Shown: positions 14,601-21,912 of the stretch, in pieces
Position numbering within the stretch: the first letter of the stretch is position 1
Layout of the letters: each line of letters begins with the position of its first letter
Assembly: GCA_030418115.1 (NCBI GenBank)
Contig: JAUHQD010000001.1
Coordinates: 124,001 to 188,000 of the forward strand
DNA: 64,000 nt
Source: Alteromonadaceae bacterium BrNp21-10
GTDB taxonomy: Bacteria; Pseudomonadota; Gammaproteobacteria; Enterobacterales; Alteromonadaceae
Reading direction: 5' to 3'
Program-made: the position numbers and the translations under genes
The notes under the pieces: generated by a model
The model's input: the letters and a program-made list of their open reading frames with translations, nothing else
Told to the model about the DNA's origin: nothing
The model's database searches: none

Positions 14601-15437
14601 TTATTGGCGGGCTAGCCGAATGTTGCCCCAGCAAGACTCAAAATTACTTCTAAAGGGATTAATGTCTAAGCCGCCTCGGCGGGTATAACGGGCATACACC
14701 GATAACTCGTTAGGTTGGCACAGTTGTTTAATATCACAAAAAATTCGTTCAACGCATTGCTCATGAAATTCGTTGTGCTGGCGGAACGAAATCAAATAGC
14801 GTAGTAAACTAGCATGGTCTATTTGTGGGCCTTGATAGCGAATGGCAATGCTGGCCCAATCTGGTTGATGGGTGATCAAACAGTTGGATTTGAGTAAATG
14901 GCTGTTAAGGGTTTCCGTTACTGTGGTCGCGTTGTTTTGCAACGTTAAGATGCTGCGGTCTGGGTTATAACAATCAACGCTAATATCCAAATCATCCAGA
15001 TTGACCCCGGGTAATTCCTGTAATTGAAATTGTTGAAACTCAGTACTGCTATAAACCTGTACATCTACCGGCACCCCCGCACAGGCCGACAAGTCTTTGG
15101 TAATCACATTTTTTACTTCGTCAAAATGCTCAAACTGGCTTTGGTTGAAACTATTGAGGTAAAGCTTAAATGACTTGGACTCAACAATATTAGGCGAACT
15201 ATAAGGCACACTGGCGGTTAAAATGGCCACGCAGGGCTTACCCTTAAGATTTAACCATGACAATTCATACCCCGTCCATAAATCGACGCCGGTAAAAGGT
15301 TGTTGTGTAACAATATTTAAGGATTCGCGATTGAGCTTTCGCGGCACTGCTTGCAATAAATGCGGCGCATATTGATCAATATACTCAACAGTTTTACCTA
15401 AACTTAGCTGATCTAAGGCTGGGTCTTTATATGTCAT
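14601..15437 (-). CDS. queF: NADPH-dependent 7-cyano-7-deazaguanine reductase QueF (long form)
   Basis: At 278 residues this is the E. coli-type two-domain QueF. The family motif is [13 protein letters not shown] (86-98). The catalytic cysteine C186 lies in [12 protein letters not shown], with the catalytic aspartate D193, each shifted by four from E. coli C190/D197. It reduces the nitrile preQ0 to the amine preQ1, the precursor of queuosine in tRNA, in the cytoplasm. GGGAAAG lies just upstream of the ATG. It diverges from syd across 61 bases, a pairing common in this group. Confidence 0.97.
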
Positions 15438-15498: not shown

Positions 15499-16065
15499 AT
15501 GCAAGAAAATTTGAATCTGTGTCACGTCCTTGATGAGTTTATGCAAACGTTGCAAGCCGCACTGACCGAGTCCTTAGAGTATCCCGACAATGCACTGCTC
15601 ACCGAATTTGATGAACAATGGCCATCACCTTGTGTCATTTCGACTGACAATAATGATGATCAGAGCTGTTGGCTGCCGGTGCGTAAAACAAAAACGACGG
15701 CATTTGATAATTTAGAACAAGCAGTAAAGCTGACATTACACCCCGATATTAAAGCGTTTTATAGCCGTTATTATAGCGACCCACTGAATGCTAATTCTTC
15801 CAGAGGCGCATTGCAGCTGCTGCAAGTCTGGAATGATGACGATTTTGAGCGTCTACAGACTAACTTAATCGGCCATATTTTAATGAAGCAACGATTACGC
15901 CAGCCGGTAACGTTATTTTTTGCATTGACCGATGAAGATGATTTTATCCTCAGTGTGGATAATGCTAGCGGCGAAGTGTTGTTAGAGCAGGTCGGTCAAA
16001 AAGCTCGAGAAGTGTTATCCCCCAATCTAGCGACTTTTATTCAATCCCTTCAACCACTGATTTAG
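15499..16065 (+). CDS. syd: SecY-interacting protein Syd
   Basis: The protein of 188 residues matches Syd in length and sequence, with WLPVRKTKT, then FYSRYYSDPLNAN and the LIGHILMKQRLRQPVTLFFA block. Syd is a small cytoplasmic protein that binds SecY at the inner membrane and is thought to act in quality control of the translocon. No signal peptide or membrane span is present, as expected. It is transcribed divergently from queF and converges on a small hypothetical gene three bases beyond its stop. Confidence 0.95.
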   Translation: MQENLNLCHVLDEFMQTLQAALTESLEYPDNALLTEFDEQWPSPCVISTDNNDDQSCWLPVRKTKTTAFDNLEQAVKLTLHPDIKAFYSRYYSDPLNANSSRGALQLLQVWNDDDFERLQTNLIGHILMKQRLRQPVTLFFALTDEDDFILSVDNASGEVLLEQVGQKAREVLSPNLATFIQSLQPLI

Positions 16066-17126: not shown

Positions 17127-17292
17127 ATCTTCTCCTATAACATTGAAAAACCTACACTGTTTTAATTGTAGCCTATGTTGTCCACTCTGTGTGACTTAAA
17201 CGAATATTATCTATCAATGTAAATAAACTGTTAACAAAGTGTGCTGGGTAAGGTACATTTTGCGCAATTATTGCCATTACGTACTCTTATTT

Positions 17293-17931
17293 ATGATTGC
17301 TGAATTAGCACCAGTCCCAGACAAAATAAAAGCGGTGTATCTTGCTGCTGAAGATTTAAAGATTGCAGGATCAATTTTGTATCAGGCTTATCATGATGAT
17401 CCGCTGTTTAAAGATATTTTTCAGTTTGAAAAAGAAGGCTATGAGCCACGCCTGCGGGCAGCGATACGTGAAGAGCTCAACGCCTTTTGGCAAGCGAAGC
17501 AACCCATGATTGGTTTGTTCGAAGATGAACGTTTACTTGCCGTTGCTTGTTTAATCGCCCCAGATTCGACCTTCGGGCCTCAGCGTTTTTGGCACTGGCG
17601 TTTGAAAATGTTATTGACAGCTGGTTTTTTAGGTACCCGTTGTATGGTTGAGAAAGAAACGCTTATCCAGCAACATATGCCAGCCTCTCGCCATCATATG
17701 CTGTCCTTTATTGGTGTGCATCCAGATTACCAACATGCAGGTTTAGGGCATATTTTAATGAGTGCCATTGACTCGTTGATGATGGAAGATACTAATAGTG
17801 AAGGTGTTGGTGTGTATGTGACGGTAGACAAATGTTTGGCCTTTTTCAAAGACGGCCAATACGATTTAGTCGAGCAGCTAAAGGTAGGGGCCATTGCTGG
17901 GCATATTATGTTTCGTCATCGTCCGAAATAA
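17293..17931 (+). CDS. GNAT family N-acetyltransferase
   Basis: The C-terminal half has the GNAT acetyl-CoA-binding motif: LSFIGVHPDYQHAGLGHILM contains the Q/RxxGxG/A pattern (here QHAGLG), followed by DSLMMED and VTVDKCLAFF. An N-terminal domain with a hydrophobic helix (KMLLTAGFLGTRCMV) precedes it. The substrate is unknown. The start is uncertain: the frame opens at GTG 17239, but ATG 17293 gives a protein starting MIAELAPVPDK without the odd hydrophobic leader, and neither has a good ribosome binding site. It is followed nine bases later by a DUF962 gene, so the two are probably co-transcribed. Confidence 0.82.
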   Translation: MIAELAPVPDKIKAVYLAAEDLKIAGSILYQAYHDDPLFKDIFQFEKEGYEPRLRAAIREELNAFWQAKQPMIGLFEDERLLAVACLIAPDSTFGPQRFWHWRLKMLLTAGFLGTRCMVEKETLIQQHMPASRHHMLSFIGVHPDYQHAGLGHILMSAIDSLMMEDTNSEGVGVYVTVDKCLAFFKDGQYDLVEQLKVGAIAGHIMFRHRPK

Positions 17932-17940
17932 CACTCAGTC

Positions 17941-18267
17941 ATGTCCAGCATAAATAGCTTTAAGGAATTCTATCCTTATTATCTGCAGGAGCATCGCCAT
18001 CCCGTTTGCCGACGATTACATTATATCGGCAGCTTGCTGGTGATTGCTGTTTTAGTAACAGCCATTGTCCAAGCCCAATGGACATTATTGTGGTTGTTAC
18101 CGATCATTGGCTACGGCTTTGCATGGCTTGGTCATTTTGTGTTTGAAAAAAATAAACCTGCAACCTTTCAATACCCCTTCTATAGTCTTGCGGCTGATTG
18201 GATCATGCTTAAAGATGCACTACTTTCACTGCTTGGTTTCGCGACGCCGCTGGATAGGCTTAAATAG
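17941..18267 (+). CDS. DUF962/Mpo1-like membrane protein
   Basis: This 108-residue protein has the features of the Mpo1/YGL010w (DUF962) family: EHRHPVCRRLHYIG near residues 17-30 and WLGHFVFEKNKPATFQYP in the second half, with conserved histidines. Two hydrophobic segments (about residues 30-60) cross the membrane. Yeast Mpo1 is an iron-dependent dioxygenase that shortens 2-hydroxy fatty acids using these histidines; for bacterial members this role is inferred. The gene follows the acetyltransferase closely. No terminator was recognised between it and the CsrB region. Confidence 0.88.
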   Translation: MSSINSFKEFYPYYLQEHRHPVCRRLHYIGSLLVIAVLVTAIVQAQWTLLWLLPIIGYGFAWLGHFVFEKNKPATFQYPFYSLAADWIMLKDALLSLLGFATPLDRLK

Positions 18268-18322
18268 TCGCCAAGGCTTCCCATGGTGGGCAAAATCAAG
18301 CGTCTACTTTTCCTAGTCGCTG

Positions 18323-18340
18323 TGTAGGAAATATCTTACA
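18323..18340. promoter_or_regulatory. GacA/UvrY-type response regulator site upstream of the CsrB-like RNA
   Basis: TGTAGG-N6-CTTACA at 18323-18340 matches the known GacA/UvrY consensus TGTAAG-N6-CTTACA with one mismatch, and a further half-site TGTAGG follows at 18345-18350. GacA-family regulators activate the csrB/rsm RNA genes from such upstream sites, often well over 100 bases before the start. Here the distance to the likely RNA start is about 170 bases. Confidence 0.8.
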
Positions 18341-18510
18341 AACATGTAGGAATAACTAGGGTTTTTTGTACAAACATCTCATTTTAATTTATTCAATCAA
18401 CTGATTTTAAAAGAAAATTTTATAAATTCGGCGAATGTCATTTTTATTACCCCCTCTTTTTTTAATTCTAGTCACCTTTCGTTCATCAAATCGCTGTACA
18501 TTATCAACCG

Positions 18511-18831
18511 TCACAAGGAAACACGATAAGTCAGGAAGACAAAGGGATTAACTGGAAAGATTTCAGGATGAAATAGAGGGATGACCTCAGGATGAGGAAA
18601 TGGAAAGTGATGGATCACTTAAAGGGATAGCTTTTGGATGAAGCACGGTCTGGATGACCATCAATACGGATGTTGGCAAGGAGCACAGGAAGACGAGGTT
18701 TGTAAGGGAATATATAGGCCTTTCAAGGATGAAAAATAGGACGCTAGCCGTAAAGAGGCAATGGATGGTCGAGAGGGATTCTCAAAATTTATAAAAACGC
18801 GCAACTAAATAATATTAGTCGCGCGTTTTTT
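18511..18831 (+). ncRNA. csrB: CsrB/RsmZ-family CsrA-sequestering small RNA
   Basis: This coding-free stretch contains 21 GGA triplets in about 270 bases, many as AGGAUG or UGGAUG. At least seven are displayed in small hairpins: 18561-18573 (TTTCA/TGAAA), 18585-18597 (CCTCA/TGAGG), 18605-18620 (AAGTGA/TCACTT), 18630-18644, 18647-18659 (GGTC/GACC), 18721-18734 (TTTC/GAAA) and 18771-18783 (GAGA/TCTC). This is the architecture of CsrB-type RNAs, which bind many CsrA dimers and relieve their translational repression. The 3' end is a strong terminator. The 5' end is approximate: a -10-like TACATT at 18497-18502 places the start near 18508-18515; no good -35 was seen, consistent with an activator-dependent promoter. 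The GacA-type site lies upstream. Confidence 0.93.
18797..18831 (+). terminator. Rho-independent terminator of the CsrB-like RNA
   Basis: ACGCGCAACTAA (18797-18808) pairs with TTAGTCGCGCGT (18815-18826) with a single mismatch around a six-base loop, and is followed by a T-run to 18831. It also lies just downstream of the convergent DUF3301 gene and may serve both directions. Confidence 0.92.
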
Positions 18832-18855
18832 ATATCTATTACATAAGCATTGCCA

Positions 18856-19164
18856 TTAGATGCGATAGGCTGGTAGTACAGTATTTTCAATACGCAGGCC
18901 GCGCATGCTCAACTCCCCCGTAGAGCTATCTTCACCATTGCCGGAAAACTCAAAATCAAACTCACTGTACCAATCTAGCTTGCCATGATGTATGGCTATA
19001 CGAGTTTTTCGTCTGGCGACACTTACCAGTTGTAATTGGTTTTTTTCACAGTAGCGCAGCAAATATTGATTAGCGTATTCAGTAATCGCGCGGATGCGCC
19101 AAAATTGAACCACCACCACGATGATGACCAACAACATTATTATATCGAATAGGTTAAACACCAT
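18856..19164 (-). CDS. DUF3301 family membrane-anchored protein
   Basis: This 102-residue protein starts with one membrane helix (LFDIIMLLVIIVVVVQFWRIR, about residues 5-22). A soluble domain follows, with YCEKNQLQLVSVARRK and LDWYSEFDFEFSGNGEDSSTGELSMRG, matching DUF3301. Its function is unknown; the soluble part probably faces the cytoplasm by the positive-inside rule (RIRAITEY follows the helix). It overlaps the end of the upstream DUF3549 gene by 11 bases, so the two are translated from one mRNA. The pairing DUF3549-DUF3301 beside yqcC and truC is a familiar arrangement in this bacterial group. Confidence 0.88.
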   Translation of the reverse strand: MVFNLFDIIMLLVIIVVVVQFWRIRAITEYANQYLLRYCEKNQLQLVSVARRKTRIAIHHGKLDWYSEFDFEFSGNGEDSSTGELSMRGLRIENTVLPAYRI

Positions 19165-20200
19165 GTGTTGAGCTTTCCTGTTGACTGAACAGTTGTCCGA
19201 TAGCCTTTGTGAGTGCTGGTGATTTATGCTGCTGGCGAATGATGCTCAGTAACGGCGTACGTAACAATGGTATTTGCACTAGATCGGCAAAGACACCGTT
19301 AAACAATCCGTTGTCTGAATCGTGCAGTGCTAACTGGTTGATGAATAAATCCAGCAAAGTACTGTCTTGTAAATGCTGCCAATGACGACCAGCAATGACT
19401 ACCAGAATATCCATATCGACTTTTTCTTCAGAGCATAACATCGATTGAATAAATGTTTTGACCAAAGTGGTTGCCGTTGATTGCGCTAGTGCACGTAACG
19501 CCATGGCCATATCTCGAGTGTCTGTATTGTCTTGTTGTGCCCACTCTAATAGGTACTGACTAATTTGCTTATTGACGGCGATATTTTCCAAACTGCTAAA
19601 TAGCGACGTACGCACCGGTGCCGGCAATTGACTGAGCTGAGCACGGATTATTTCTGCCAGTTCGCTAATGGGGGTGTAAACAGCAAAATCACTGATCCCT
19701 TGTAGCGACAATGCTTGCCACTGGTCCTCTAGCGGATCGGCAAAATAGTCTTGTACTGCAGTAAAATACTGGCTAGCTGGTAACCCCAACTGCTGGCGGC
19801 TAGCACTGTTAAAATCGGCTAGTTGTTGTTGGTTAGGGATAAAAGTATAGGGATTTTCCGGTAATTGACCGTTCGTTGCTTCGGCTTTTTCCAAATCCTG
19901 ACCTAACGCGGTGACAATAATATGTAAGAAGTCGTTCAACGCAGCTTGGATCACTAACCCTTGTTCATCCAAGGGTAATTTTAAAAACCAAATGTAATGT
20001 TGCTGGGATAGCTGCTTATTAATAAAAACAATGCCAAACCATGCTGCCTGTTGTCGAGGAGTTGGGTGGGCGACTTGCGCCATTTCAATATCTAAGAATT
20101 GTTGAGTGGGTACGACACGCAGGCCTCGACTGAGATCAAAAACCTGATATTGGGTACCTGCTTGGAGTAAAAATTCACTAATGGTGGATATGGGCTTCAT
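19154..20200 (-). CDS. DUF3549 family protein
   Basis: The 348-residue protein matches DUF3549, with TISEFLLQAGTQYQVFDLSRGLRVV at the start, then QQAAWFGIVFINKQ and HYIWFLKLPLDEQGLV. The second half is a series of helical repeats (for example MAMALRALAQSTATTLVKTFI) suggestive of a HEAT-like scaffold. No function is known and no signal or membrane segment is present. I start it at ATG 20200, which gives the family-typical MKPISTISEF; an ATG at 20227 adds nine residues but has no ribosome binding site. It diverges from yqcC. Confidence 0.87.
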   Translation of the reverse strand: MKPISTISEFLLQAGTQYQVFDLSRGLRVVPTQQFLDIEMAQVAHPTPRQQAAWFGIVFINKQLSQQHYIWFLKLPLDEQGLVIQAALNDFLHIIVTALGQDLEKAEATNGQLPENPYTFIPNQQQLADFNSASRQQLGLPASQYFTAVQDYFADPLEDQWQALSLQGISDFAVYTPISELAEIIRAQLSQLPAPVRTSLFSSLENIAVNKQISQYLLEWAQQDNTDTRDMAMALRALAQSTATTLVKTFIQSMLCSEEKVDMDILVVIAGRHWQHLQDSTLLDLFINQLALHDSDNGLFNGVFADLVQIPLLRTPLLSIIRQQHKSPALTKAIGQLFSQQESSTHGV

Positions 20201-20376
20201 GTTATTCTTTTGGGCGTTGTGTGTCATGAATATGACGATGGATTATATACTCATGCTGCTGCAAAATGCAGGGTTTGGGCAGCAATTAAGATCGAATTAG
20301 ACAAGGTAATCGTTTATAGGCTCAGTTTTACTCAGCCAAAATGATTTACTCAGTATCAATGGCGCTAGGCAATAAC

Positions 20377-20718
20377 ATGAGCAATCACCTTATTTATCAT
20401 CAATTTGAAGAGCTGCTTCACAAGTTACAGTTGGAAATGCAAGCTAACGGTAGTTGGGGGACCAAGTTGCCATCAGCAGATGCATTGGCCAGTAGTACGC
20501 CTTTTGCTTGTGATACCCTTGCATTTGAAGAGTGGCTACAGTTTATATTTATACCCAAAATGCAGTTGTTACTTAACAACAGGCAGCCGTTACCGAGCAG
20601 TATGGGGTTGTTACCCATGGCCGAAATGCGTTTTGCCACCAACTCACACTATCGCCAGATGCTAGTTATCATCGCTGCCATTGATGCAGCCATTCATGAG
20701 CATAATCAGAAATGTTAG
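20377..20718 (+). CDS. yqcC: YqcC family protein
   Basis: The protein of about 113 residues matches the small YqcC family, with FEELLHKLQLEMQANGSW, then PFACDTLAFEEWLQFIFIPKM and the PLPSSMGLLPMAEM block. It is soluble and helical, of unknown function, and is almost always encoded next to truC. ATG 20377 is chosen from family start positions, although the frame opens at 20341. Its end overlaps the truC start by seven bases, indicating coupled translation. Confidence 0.9.
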   Translation: MSNHLIYHQFEELLHKLQLEMQANGSWGTKLPSADALASSTPFACDTLAFEEWLQFIFIPKMQLLLNNRQPLPSSMGLLPMAEMRFATNSHYRQMLVIIAAIDAAIHEHNQKC

Positions 20719-21464
20719 AAATTTTGTACCAAGATGACACCCTCGTCGCTATAAATAAGCCCGGTGGCCTGTTAGTTCATCGTAGTATGTTAGATAAACA
20801 TGCCACAGAATTTGCCATGCAAATGTTGCGTGACCAGCTTGATCAACATGTGTTCCCAGCGCACCGCTTAGATCGCCCCACAGCAGGGGTTTTATTGTTT
20901 GCCTTAAATAGTGATACAGCACGTTTGCTTGGGGAGCAATTTGCCACTCAGCAGGTTGAAAAGACTTATCATGCGATTGTCCGTGGCTTTGCACCGGAGG
21001 CGGGGGAATTGGATTATCCATTGAAGGAAGAACTGGATAAAATAGCCGATAAAAAGGCCCGTCAAGATAAGGAGCCCCAGGAAGCGGTGACGGCATACAA
21101 ACGCCTGCATACGGTTGAATTACCCTTTGCCGTGGGGCGATATGCCAGTGCCCGCTATTCATTAATGCAACTGTCGCCGAAAACCGGCCGTAAACATCAA
21201 CTCCGCCGACATATGTCCCATTTACGGCATCCCATCGTCGGTGACACAACTCATGGTGATGGTAAACATAATCGTTTTATTCGGGAGCAATTTGCCTTGG
21301 AAGGGTTAGCGTTGTGTAGTACTAATTTAACCTTAATTCATCCCCACACTGGCAACCGTATCTCGATTGATGCAAAATTACCTGATAGGTTTCAAGATGT
21401 TATTCAGCAGTGGGGGTGGTCAATGCCCTCAAGTGCTGAACAAGTAGAATATAAGGAACAGTAA
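20712..21464 (+). CDS. truC: tRNA pseudouridine(65) synthase TruC
   Basis: This RluA-family pseudouridine synthase has the catalytic motif HRLDRPTAG at residues 51-59 with aspartate D54, the same position as in E. coli TruC. INKPGGLLVHRS near the start and TGRKHQLRRHMSHLRHPIVGD in the second half are further family blocks. TruC converts U65 in certain tRNAs to pseudouridine. It is 250 residues, close to the E. coli enzyme. It lies between yqcC and a flavodoxin gene in the order yqcC-truC-yqcA seen in E. coli. Confidence 0.95.
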   Translation: MLEILYQDDTLVAINKPGGLLVHRSMLDKHATEFAMQMLRDQLDQHVFPAHRLDRPTAGVLLFALNSDTARLLGEQFATQQVEKTYHAIVRGFAPEAGELDYPLKEELDKIADKKARQDKEPQEAVTAYKRLHTVELPFAVGRYASARYSLMQLSPKTGRKHQLRRHMSHLRHPIVGDTTHGDGKHNRFIREQFALEGLALCSTNLTLIHPHTGNRISIDAKLPDRFQDVIQQWGWSMPSSAEQVEYKEQ

Positions 21465-21468
21465 CAAA

Positions 21469-21912
21469 ATGGCAGTAATTAGTATTTTTGTAGGCTCCGT
21501 GTATGGTGGAGCAACCCATGTAGCTGAACAAGTGCAGGCGGAGTTGCAGCACCAGGGAAATGAAGTGACGTTGTTTGAAGATCCCACTGTGGAAGATTTC
21601 GAAGCCGCTGAAGCATTATTAGTGTTGAGCTCAACCACAGGGCAGGGCGATATTCCTGCCGAATTAGAATCCCTCTATTTTGATTTAGAATCCAAGTTTC
21701 CATTAATGAACGGTAAGCCTTTTGGCGTAATCGGCATGGGGGACTCCAGCTATGGTGATACCTATTGTGGCGCCGGAGAAAAGTGGTTTGCATTATTAGA
21801 AGAGCTACAAGGCAAGCCAGTTAAAGAATTGCTACGTATAGATGCTATCGAGACGATGGAGCCAGAAGTTGAGGCAGTGCCATGGGCTGCCGATTGGGCA
21901 ACCCAGCTTTAA
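21469..21912 (+). CDS. yqcA: short-chain flavodoxin, YqcA/MioC type
   Basis: This 147-residue protein has the flavodoxin FMN-binding layout: VGSVYGGATHVAEQV as phosphate loop near residues 8-22, SSTTGQGDIP around residues 53-62, and GMGDSSYGDTYCGAGEKW around residues 90-107. It is a short-chain flavodoxin, an FMN electron carrier in the cytoplasm. Position directly after truC, four bases away, indicates YqcA rather than MioC. The unit ends in a large bidirectional hairpin shared with the convergent FKBP gene. Confidence 0.92.
   Translation: MAVISIFVGSVYGGATHVAEQVQAELQHQGNEVTLFEDPTVEDFEAAEALLVLSSTTGQGDIPAELESLYFDLESKFPLMNGKPFGVIGMGDSSYGDTYCGAGEKWFALLEELQGKPVKELLRIDAIETMEPEVEAVPWAADWATQL

Follow-up and report, generated by a model that had tools for sequence, protein, structure and literature searches.

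A putative divergent csrB gene preceded by a UvrY box in the syd–yqcC region of an Alteromonadaceae genome

We analysed a stretch of 64,000 nucleotides (the window) from the genome of Alteromonadaceae bacterium BrNp21-10, in which a gap is flanked upstream by an Mpo1-like gene (17941-18267, +; PF06127, the DUF962 gene of the initial annotation) and downstream by a convergent DUF3301 gene (18856-19164, −; PF11743). ORFs of at least 60 aa were absent from both strands within 18317-18855, which agrees with the earlier description of a coding-free gap between these two genes. The region before the gap contains queF (14601-15437, −; TIGR03138, 405.7 bits), syd (15499-16065, +; PF07348, NF003439) and a GNAT acetyltransferase gene (17239-17931, +; PF00583), which adjoins the site in many relatives too. 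The DUF3301 gene is followed by a DUF3549 gene (19154-20227, −; PF12069), yqcC (20341-20718, +; PF04287, DUF446), truC (20712-21464, +; NF008321, 384.6 bits) and a yqcA-type flavodoxin gene (21469-21912, +; NF005989, 173.2 bits versus a cut-off of 160). The resulting order, queF(−) syd(+), the RNA(+) described below, yqcC(+) truC(+) and the yqcA-type flavodoxin gene(+), is the mirror image of that in E. coli MG1655, queF(+) syd(−) csrB(−) yqcC(−) truC(−) yqcA(−). Unlike in E. coli, the syd and yqcC genes of the window are separated by additional genes encoding the GNAT, Mpo1-like, DUF2789, DUF3301 and DUF3549 proteins as well as by small ORFs. Orthology with csrB would be the simplest reading of this neighbourhood. 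The DUF3301 protein of the window has its nearest named relatives in Aestuariibacter sp. AA17 (65% identity) and Bowmanella denitrificans (56%).

The plus strand of the gap carries 21 GGA triplets between 18517 and 18776, as had been counted before, and TCC is absent from 18511-18834. A triplet count over the 64,000-nt window revealed that the next densest 325-nt stretch has 12 GGA on the plus strand and 11 on the minus strand. When 18510-18834 (+) was folded, the z-score was −3.24 and none of 100 shuffled sequences was equally stable. The GGAs are not buried in this fold: 19 of the 21 are mostly unpaired in the ensemble, with a mean unpaired probability of 0.77 versus 0.47 for the other triplets. 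A similar difference (0.64 versus 0.39) was obtained for the strongest CsrB match from another family (206 bits). The hairpin-loop probability exceeds 0.5 for eight of the 21 GGAs. A stem scan against 300 GGA-preserving shuffles found ten GGA loops that can be closed by a stem of at least 4 bp (shuffle mean 4.9; ten reached in 4/300) and seven that can be closed by at least 5 bp (reached in 1/300), and for 3-bp stems there was no significant excess (13 loops versus 11.7 in shuffles, 112/300 reaching that number). The initial annotation had proposed at least seven GGAs in tiny hairpin loops, a number borne out by both the fold and the scan.

The putative RNA begins with a 5' signature, GTCACAAGGAAACACGA (18510-18526, +), that is conserved in alignments of relatives. 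It is followed by a hairpin GTC-AGGAA-GAC (18530-18540, +), whose GGA has a hairpin-loop probability of 0.82, and by a possible hairpin ATTTC-AGGAT-GAAAT (18560-18574, +), which is missing from the minimum-energy fold and, with a GGA hairpin-loop probability of 0.30, represents a minority form. The stem scan further suggested possible GGA hairpins CCTCAGGATGAGG, AGTGATGGATCACT, GCTTTTGGATGAAGC, GGTCTGGATGACC, TTTCAAGGATGAAA and GAGAGGGATTCTC between 18585 and 18783 (+), with hairpin-loop probabilities of 0.26, 0.91, 0.87, 0.09, 0.83 and 0.60, respectively. Since the probabilities of CCTCAGGATGAGG and GGTCTGGATGACC are low, these two hairpins are weak in the ensemble.

The strong terminator noted earlier at the end of the gap was recognised by both sequence reading and folding as a hairpin with a six-U run (18793-18831, the run at 18826-18831), to which no strand was assigned in our feature list. 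A consensus scanner listed a terminator at 18793-18831 on the minus strand only. The element is near-symmetric, having an A-run as well as a U-run, and thus may end both the RNA and the convergent DUF3301 gene. These features bear on whether the gap encodes a free RNA or belongs, as a long leader or cis-acting element, to one of the adjacent genes. Although its position in an intergenic gap beside genes would suit a leader, the downstream DUF3301 gene is convergent, the RNA has its own terminator and the next identified gene on the same strand is yqcC at 20341, which makes a leader or cis-element exceedingly improbable.

A search with the Rfam covariance models, reported by E-value, assigned 18510-18834 (+), about 325 nt, to RF00018 (CsrB) with 46.8 bits and E 1.5e-11. 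The alignment covers model positions 1-356 of 356, and the boundaries of 18511-18831 proposed by the initial annotation are thereby right to a base or so. When the whole genome was searched at E ≤ 1, this locus was the sole RF00018 match (E 2.1e-11). RsmY, RsmZ and CsrC were not listed for the RNA at E ≤ 10, in a listing from which four lower-scoring, unnamed matches of the same clan that overlapped others had been omitted, and CsrB was the best match. With regard to the proposed CsrB/RsmZ-family label, csrB orthologue is a better name for it than RsmZ-like RNA. Since the score lies under the RF00018 gathering score of 71 bits, which is a library threshold and not a biological feature, the window csrB is missed by routine annotation. 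At Rfam's own thresholds, the window yields only a match away from the gap, namely a t44 RNA. This RNA (RF00127; 27454-27558, +; 73.8 bits) we take to be the rpsB leader.

Among 59 genomes searched with RF00018 at E ≤ 0.01, 24 gave a match. Matches were found in 11 of the 35 genomes of the same family (that of the window included) and in 13 of the 24 genomes of other families of the order, nine of the latter above the cut-off. As none of the 11 same-family matches reaches the cut-off, the csrB sequences of the whole clade have apparently diverged from the Rfam CsrB model. A count of csrB genes that relies on Rfam may come out too low for such clades. The match could also be explained by composition, the gap then being a functionless purine-rich intergenic stretch. 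The match carries a bias of 12.7 bits, and in a lax search (E ≤ 1) RF00018 matched five of 14 control genomes, namely E. coli and four others; at E ≤ 0.01, E. coli was the only control genome that matched. We therefore turn to the conservation of the gap in relatives, which bears on this explanation.

All but one of 59 family genomes contain the DUF3301 gene, and up to ~4 kb downstream of it was taken from 57 relatives, excluding the genome of the window; three of these regions (L076, L106, L112) end early at contig ends. A GGA-dense block, defined as at least 15 GGA per 325 nt on the csrB strand, was present in 31 of the 57 regions, while no region had such a block on the opposite strand, where the maximum was 14 GGA per 325 nt. 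The densest 325-nt stretch was bimodal, with 15-28 GGA in these 31 regions and 3-12 GGA in the 26 regions that have no block beside DUF3301. Among these 26, five genomes (G010, G061, G067, G068, G082) have a strong match elsewhere to R1, a model of the 5' end described below, and two (G018, G023) have an RF00018 match elsewhere.

The 5' signature is invariant at 12 of 17 positions in an alignment of ten putative RNAs (A1) and at 15 of 17 positions in a second alignment of ten sequences (A3). The GTC-GAC stem at 18530-18540 is invariant in all ten rows of A1, and 96.7% of its cells are paired in A3. For the hairpin at 18560-18574, both sides have changed in four of the five pairs in A3, with 74% of the cells paired, which indicates compensatory changes in the relatives. 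Since the alignment of the whole RNA (A1; ten sequences, 624 columns) contains many gaps, covariation was counted in the 5' part only, on the ten sequences of A3 with L067 kept; RNAalifold retained 11 pairs on the whole of A1. The two 5' hairpins jointly gave a covariation score of 0.367, which exceeds that of each of the 500 shuffles and of each slid version; since the structure came from the window itself, this test favours the unslid form. Among five measures of covariation, the number of pairs and the number of pair types did not exceed the shuffles (135 and 141 of 500, respectively). The conservation of the 5' signature across genera, the compensatory pairs, the GGA blocks confined to the csrB strand in 31 of 57 regions and the fixed distance of the box presented below all speak against a match by composition, and we consider a functionless stretch hardly credible.

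Two models of the 5' end were built from the relatives. For R2, a badly placed row (L067) was dropped from alignment A4, and the resulting alignment (A5) of eight relatives gave a model of 68 positions from which the window had been left out. Run on 16 loci, R2 scored the window with 64.7 bits (E 5e-18) and Bowmanella denitrificans (L003) with 41.1 bits; its matches in L105 and L111 were weak. At E ≤ 1, R2 gave no match in the block-free control loci L112, L113 and L115, nor in L014, although RF00018 matches L014. The other model, R1, whose training set includes the window and L067, matched 29 of 59 family genomes at E ≤ 0.1 and 19 at E < 1e-6, nine of the latter being outside the training set; its second-best match inside the window had E 0.29. 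In 14 of the 24 relatives in which the RNA could be delimited, the RNA begins directly with GTCAGGA, and none of these 14 genomes scored below E 1e-3 with R1. R1 is therefore not a census, and such a clade-specific 5' model is useful for part of the family.

The upstream region contains a candidate activating site for UvrY/GacA, TGTAGGAAATATCTTACA (18323-18340, +). It fits the box consensus TGTAAGN6CTTACA given in PMC3171408 and PMC4682653, and no other site in the 4.2-Mb genome matches TGTARGN6CYTACA perfectly; the reversed-pattern control gave no match. Boxes with one mismatch numbered 15 genome-wide versus 17 for the reversed control. As this count is no higher than that of the control, only the perfect site is informative and further members of the regulon are not nameable. 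In a set of 35 genomes, zero to two perfect boxes occur per genome, several of them distant from any csrB match, and a perfect box alone is thus no proof of csrB. The box lies 187 nt ahead of the 5' signature, with its centre ~179 nt before 18510; the UvrY box of E. coli csrB is reported to be centred at −183/−182 (PMC4682653). The spacing was examined in 33 blocks (32 relatives and the window), eight relatives being not delimitable. The box was present in 17 of the 24 delimited relatives, with a spacing of 184-189 nt in 16 and 203 nt in one. A box of the relaxed form lies no more than 500 nt upstream of 21 of the 31 blocks with at least 15 GGA, and such boxes occur only 22 times in the 130 kb of these 31 loci. 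For the other ten blocks, among them the one in the congeneric genome G001, no box could be recognised over that distance.

A candidate −10 element, TACATT (18497-18502, +), was identified by reading the sequence, and transcription would be expected to start near 18510. Relatives have a T/A-rich stretch at the equivalent position, and a consensus scan of 18270-18900 listed no sigma-70-like promoter on the plus strand. Because E. coli csrB has an IHF site between its box and promoter, we also looked for one here. A single near-consensus site was found at 18395-18407, but it is not claimed because the number of such sites in the window is near chance (131 versus 109 expected; reached in six of 100 shuffles).

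The sequences of RNAs that act as sponges through GGA hairpins are weakly constrained, and such RNAs could have several independent origins. It is thus conceivable that a CsrA-binding RNA of the RsmX/Y/Z or Aln1 type arose separately and resembles CsrB by chance; for Alteromonas, the description of Aln1a-c is of three sRNAs encoded within 404 bp (PMC5864184). Such an origin would, however, leave the E. coli-like placement between syd and yqcC, the box spacing as in E. coli csrB, the length of about 325 nt and the full-length RF00018 alignment to coincidence, and we regard it as very improbable. The csrB reading is supported by the full-length RF00018 match, the match of the model built without the window, the sole perfect box and the neighbourhood shared with E. 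coli. We are thus highly confident that this genome has its csrB orthologue at 18510-18834 (+), encoding an RNA that would be activated by phosphorylated UvrY and would titrate CsrA via its GGA motifs. Judged from its sequence, it is a divergent csrB, and searches with RF00018 and R1 revealed no second copy. The gene thus belongs to a well-known family, in which it had been overlooked, and is not new in kind; its biology is the expected one.

The genome encodes both partners of such an RNA. A single CsrA was found at E ≤ 0.001 (73 aa; 120.2 bits versus a cut-off of 73), and its gene lies downstream of an alaS-like gene in our own reading of the locus (L120). UvrY is encoded directly upstream of uvrC (357.1 bits versus a cut-off of 280). 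No BarA orthologue was found in the genome above the cut-off, the best hybrid kinase reaching 583 versus 890 bits. The contig that also holds csrA (G000:C31) encodes two large hybrid sensor kinases (L123, L124) whose cores resemble BarA but score below its cut-off. Beyond the presence of the gene and its partners, the following steps are modelled on the established CsrA/CsrB pathway. Phosphorylated UvrY would bind the box at 18323-18340 and activate the promoter just before 18510, and the RNA of about 325 nt would terminate at the hairpin and U-run at 18793-18831. Its GGA motifs, perhaps as many as ten or so lying in small hairpin loops, may then bind several CsrA dimers, which would be kept off their target mRNAs. 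With a single csrB and the only perfect UvrY box of the genome, UvrY might even be a one-target regulator in this lineage, a suggestion that we make tentatively and hold to be rather doubtful. If it were true, the whole BarA/UvrY output would pass via one RNA, without the enterobacterial CsrB/CsrC redundancy.

The window RNA resembles E. coli CsrB in its queF-syd-csrB-yqcC-truC-yqcA neighbourhood, in the UvrY box ~180 nt upstream, in its many GGA motifs and in its length (about 325 nt versus 369 nt). In contrast to this likeness, its sequence is too distant for blastn, which against 5,426 E. coli genomes gave chance matches only, on plasmids of four, and it falls below the Rfam cut-off. One copy was found in the genome of the window, whereas E. 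coli is described as having CsrB and CsrC (PMC4682653). The likeness to CsrB1/CsrB2 of Shewanella oneidensis, drawn from their description, lies in the upstream box TGTAAGN6CTTACA and the AGGA/ARGGA-rich RNA; these RNAs are reported to be ~420 nt long and dependent on BarA/UvrY, and their two copies are split by a transposase gene, versus one copy here (PMC3171408). Alteromonas belongs to Alteromonadaceae, and so does Bowmanella, which together with Aestuariibacter is the closest named relative of the window. Alteromonas macleodii Te101 is reported to express the CsrA-sponge RNAs Aln1a-c at a very high level; they are presented as analogues of CsrB-C rich in A(N)GGA motifs, and CsrA binding is inferred there too (PMC5864184). 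Unlike the RNA of the window, they are described as three RNAs, encoded within 404 bp, and their neighbour genes are given as locus tags only in that report. The view that the window RNA is an unlisted member is right with respect to the Rfam cut-off, but CsrA-sponge RNAs had already been reported in Alteromonas (PMC5864184). The present result supplies a likely RNA partner of CsrA for a bacterium of a marine family. A computational survey of csrB genes was reportedly made by Kulkarni et al. in 2006, and an earlier prediction in relatives is possible.

Several other arrangements were observed in the genomes searched. In G067, a csrB match away from DUF3301 (G067:C11:207457-207838, L139) consists of three consecutive R1 matches with 30 GGA per 330 nt. 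G014 has an RF00018 match ~218 kb from its DUF3301 gene (G014:C1:4395981-4396314) and also a 21-GGA block beside DUF3301 (L114), and perhaps has two sponge RNAs. G042, which belongs to a different family within the order, has five tandem RF00018 matches above the cut-off, ~700 nt apart (G042:C1:4533806-4536939; L008, L030). GGA peaks alternate with GGA-free spacers in L008, in which no UvrY box of the relaxed form was found, and the G042 genome has no perfect box. In G035, overlapping RF00018 matches extend over ~730 nt (G035:C1:595028-595758), perhaps representing a very long or tandem csrB, and two more RF00018 matches are located at 68-70 kb.
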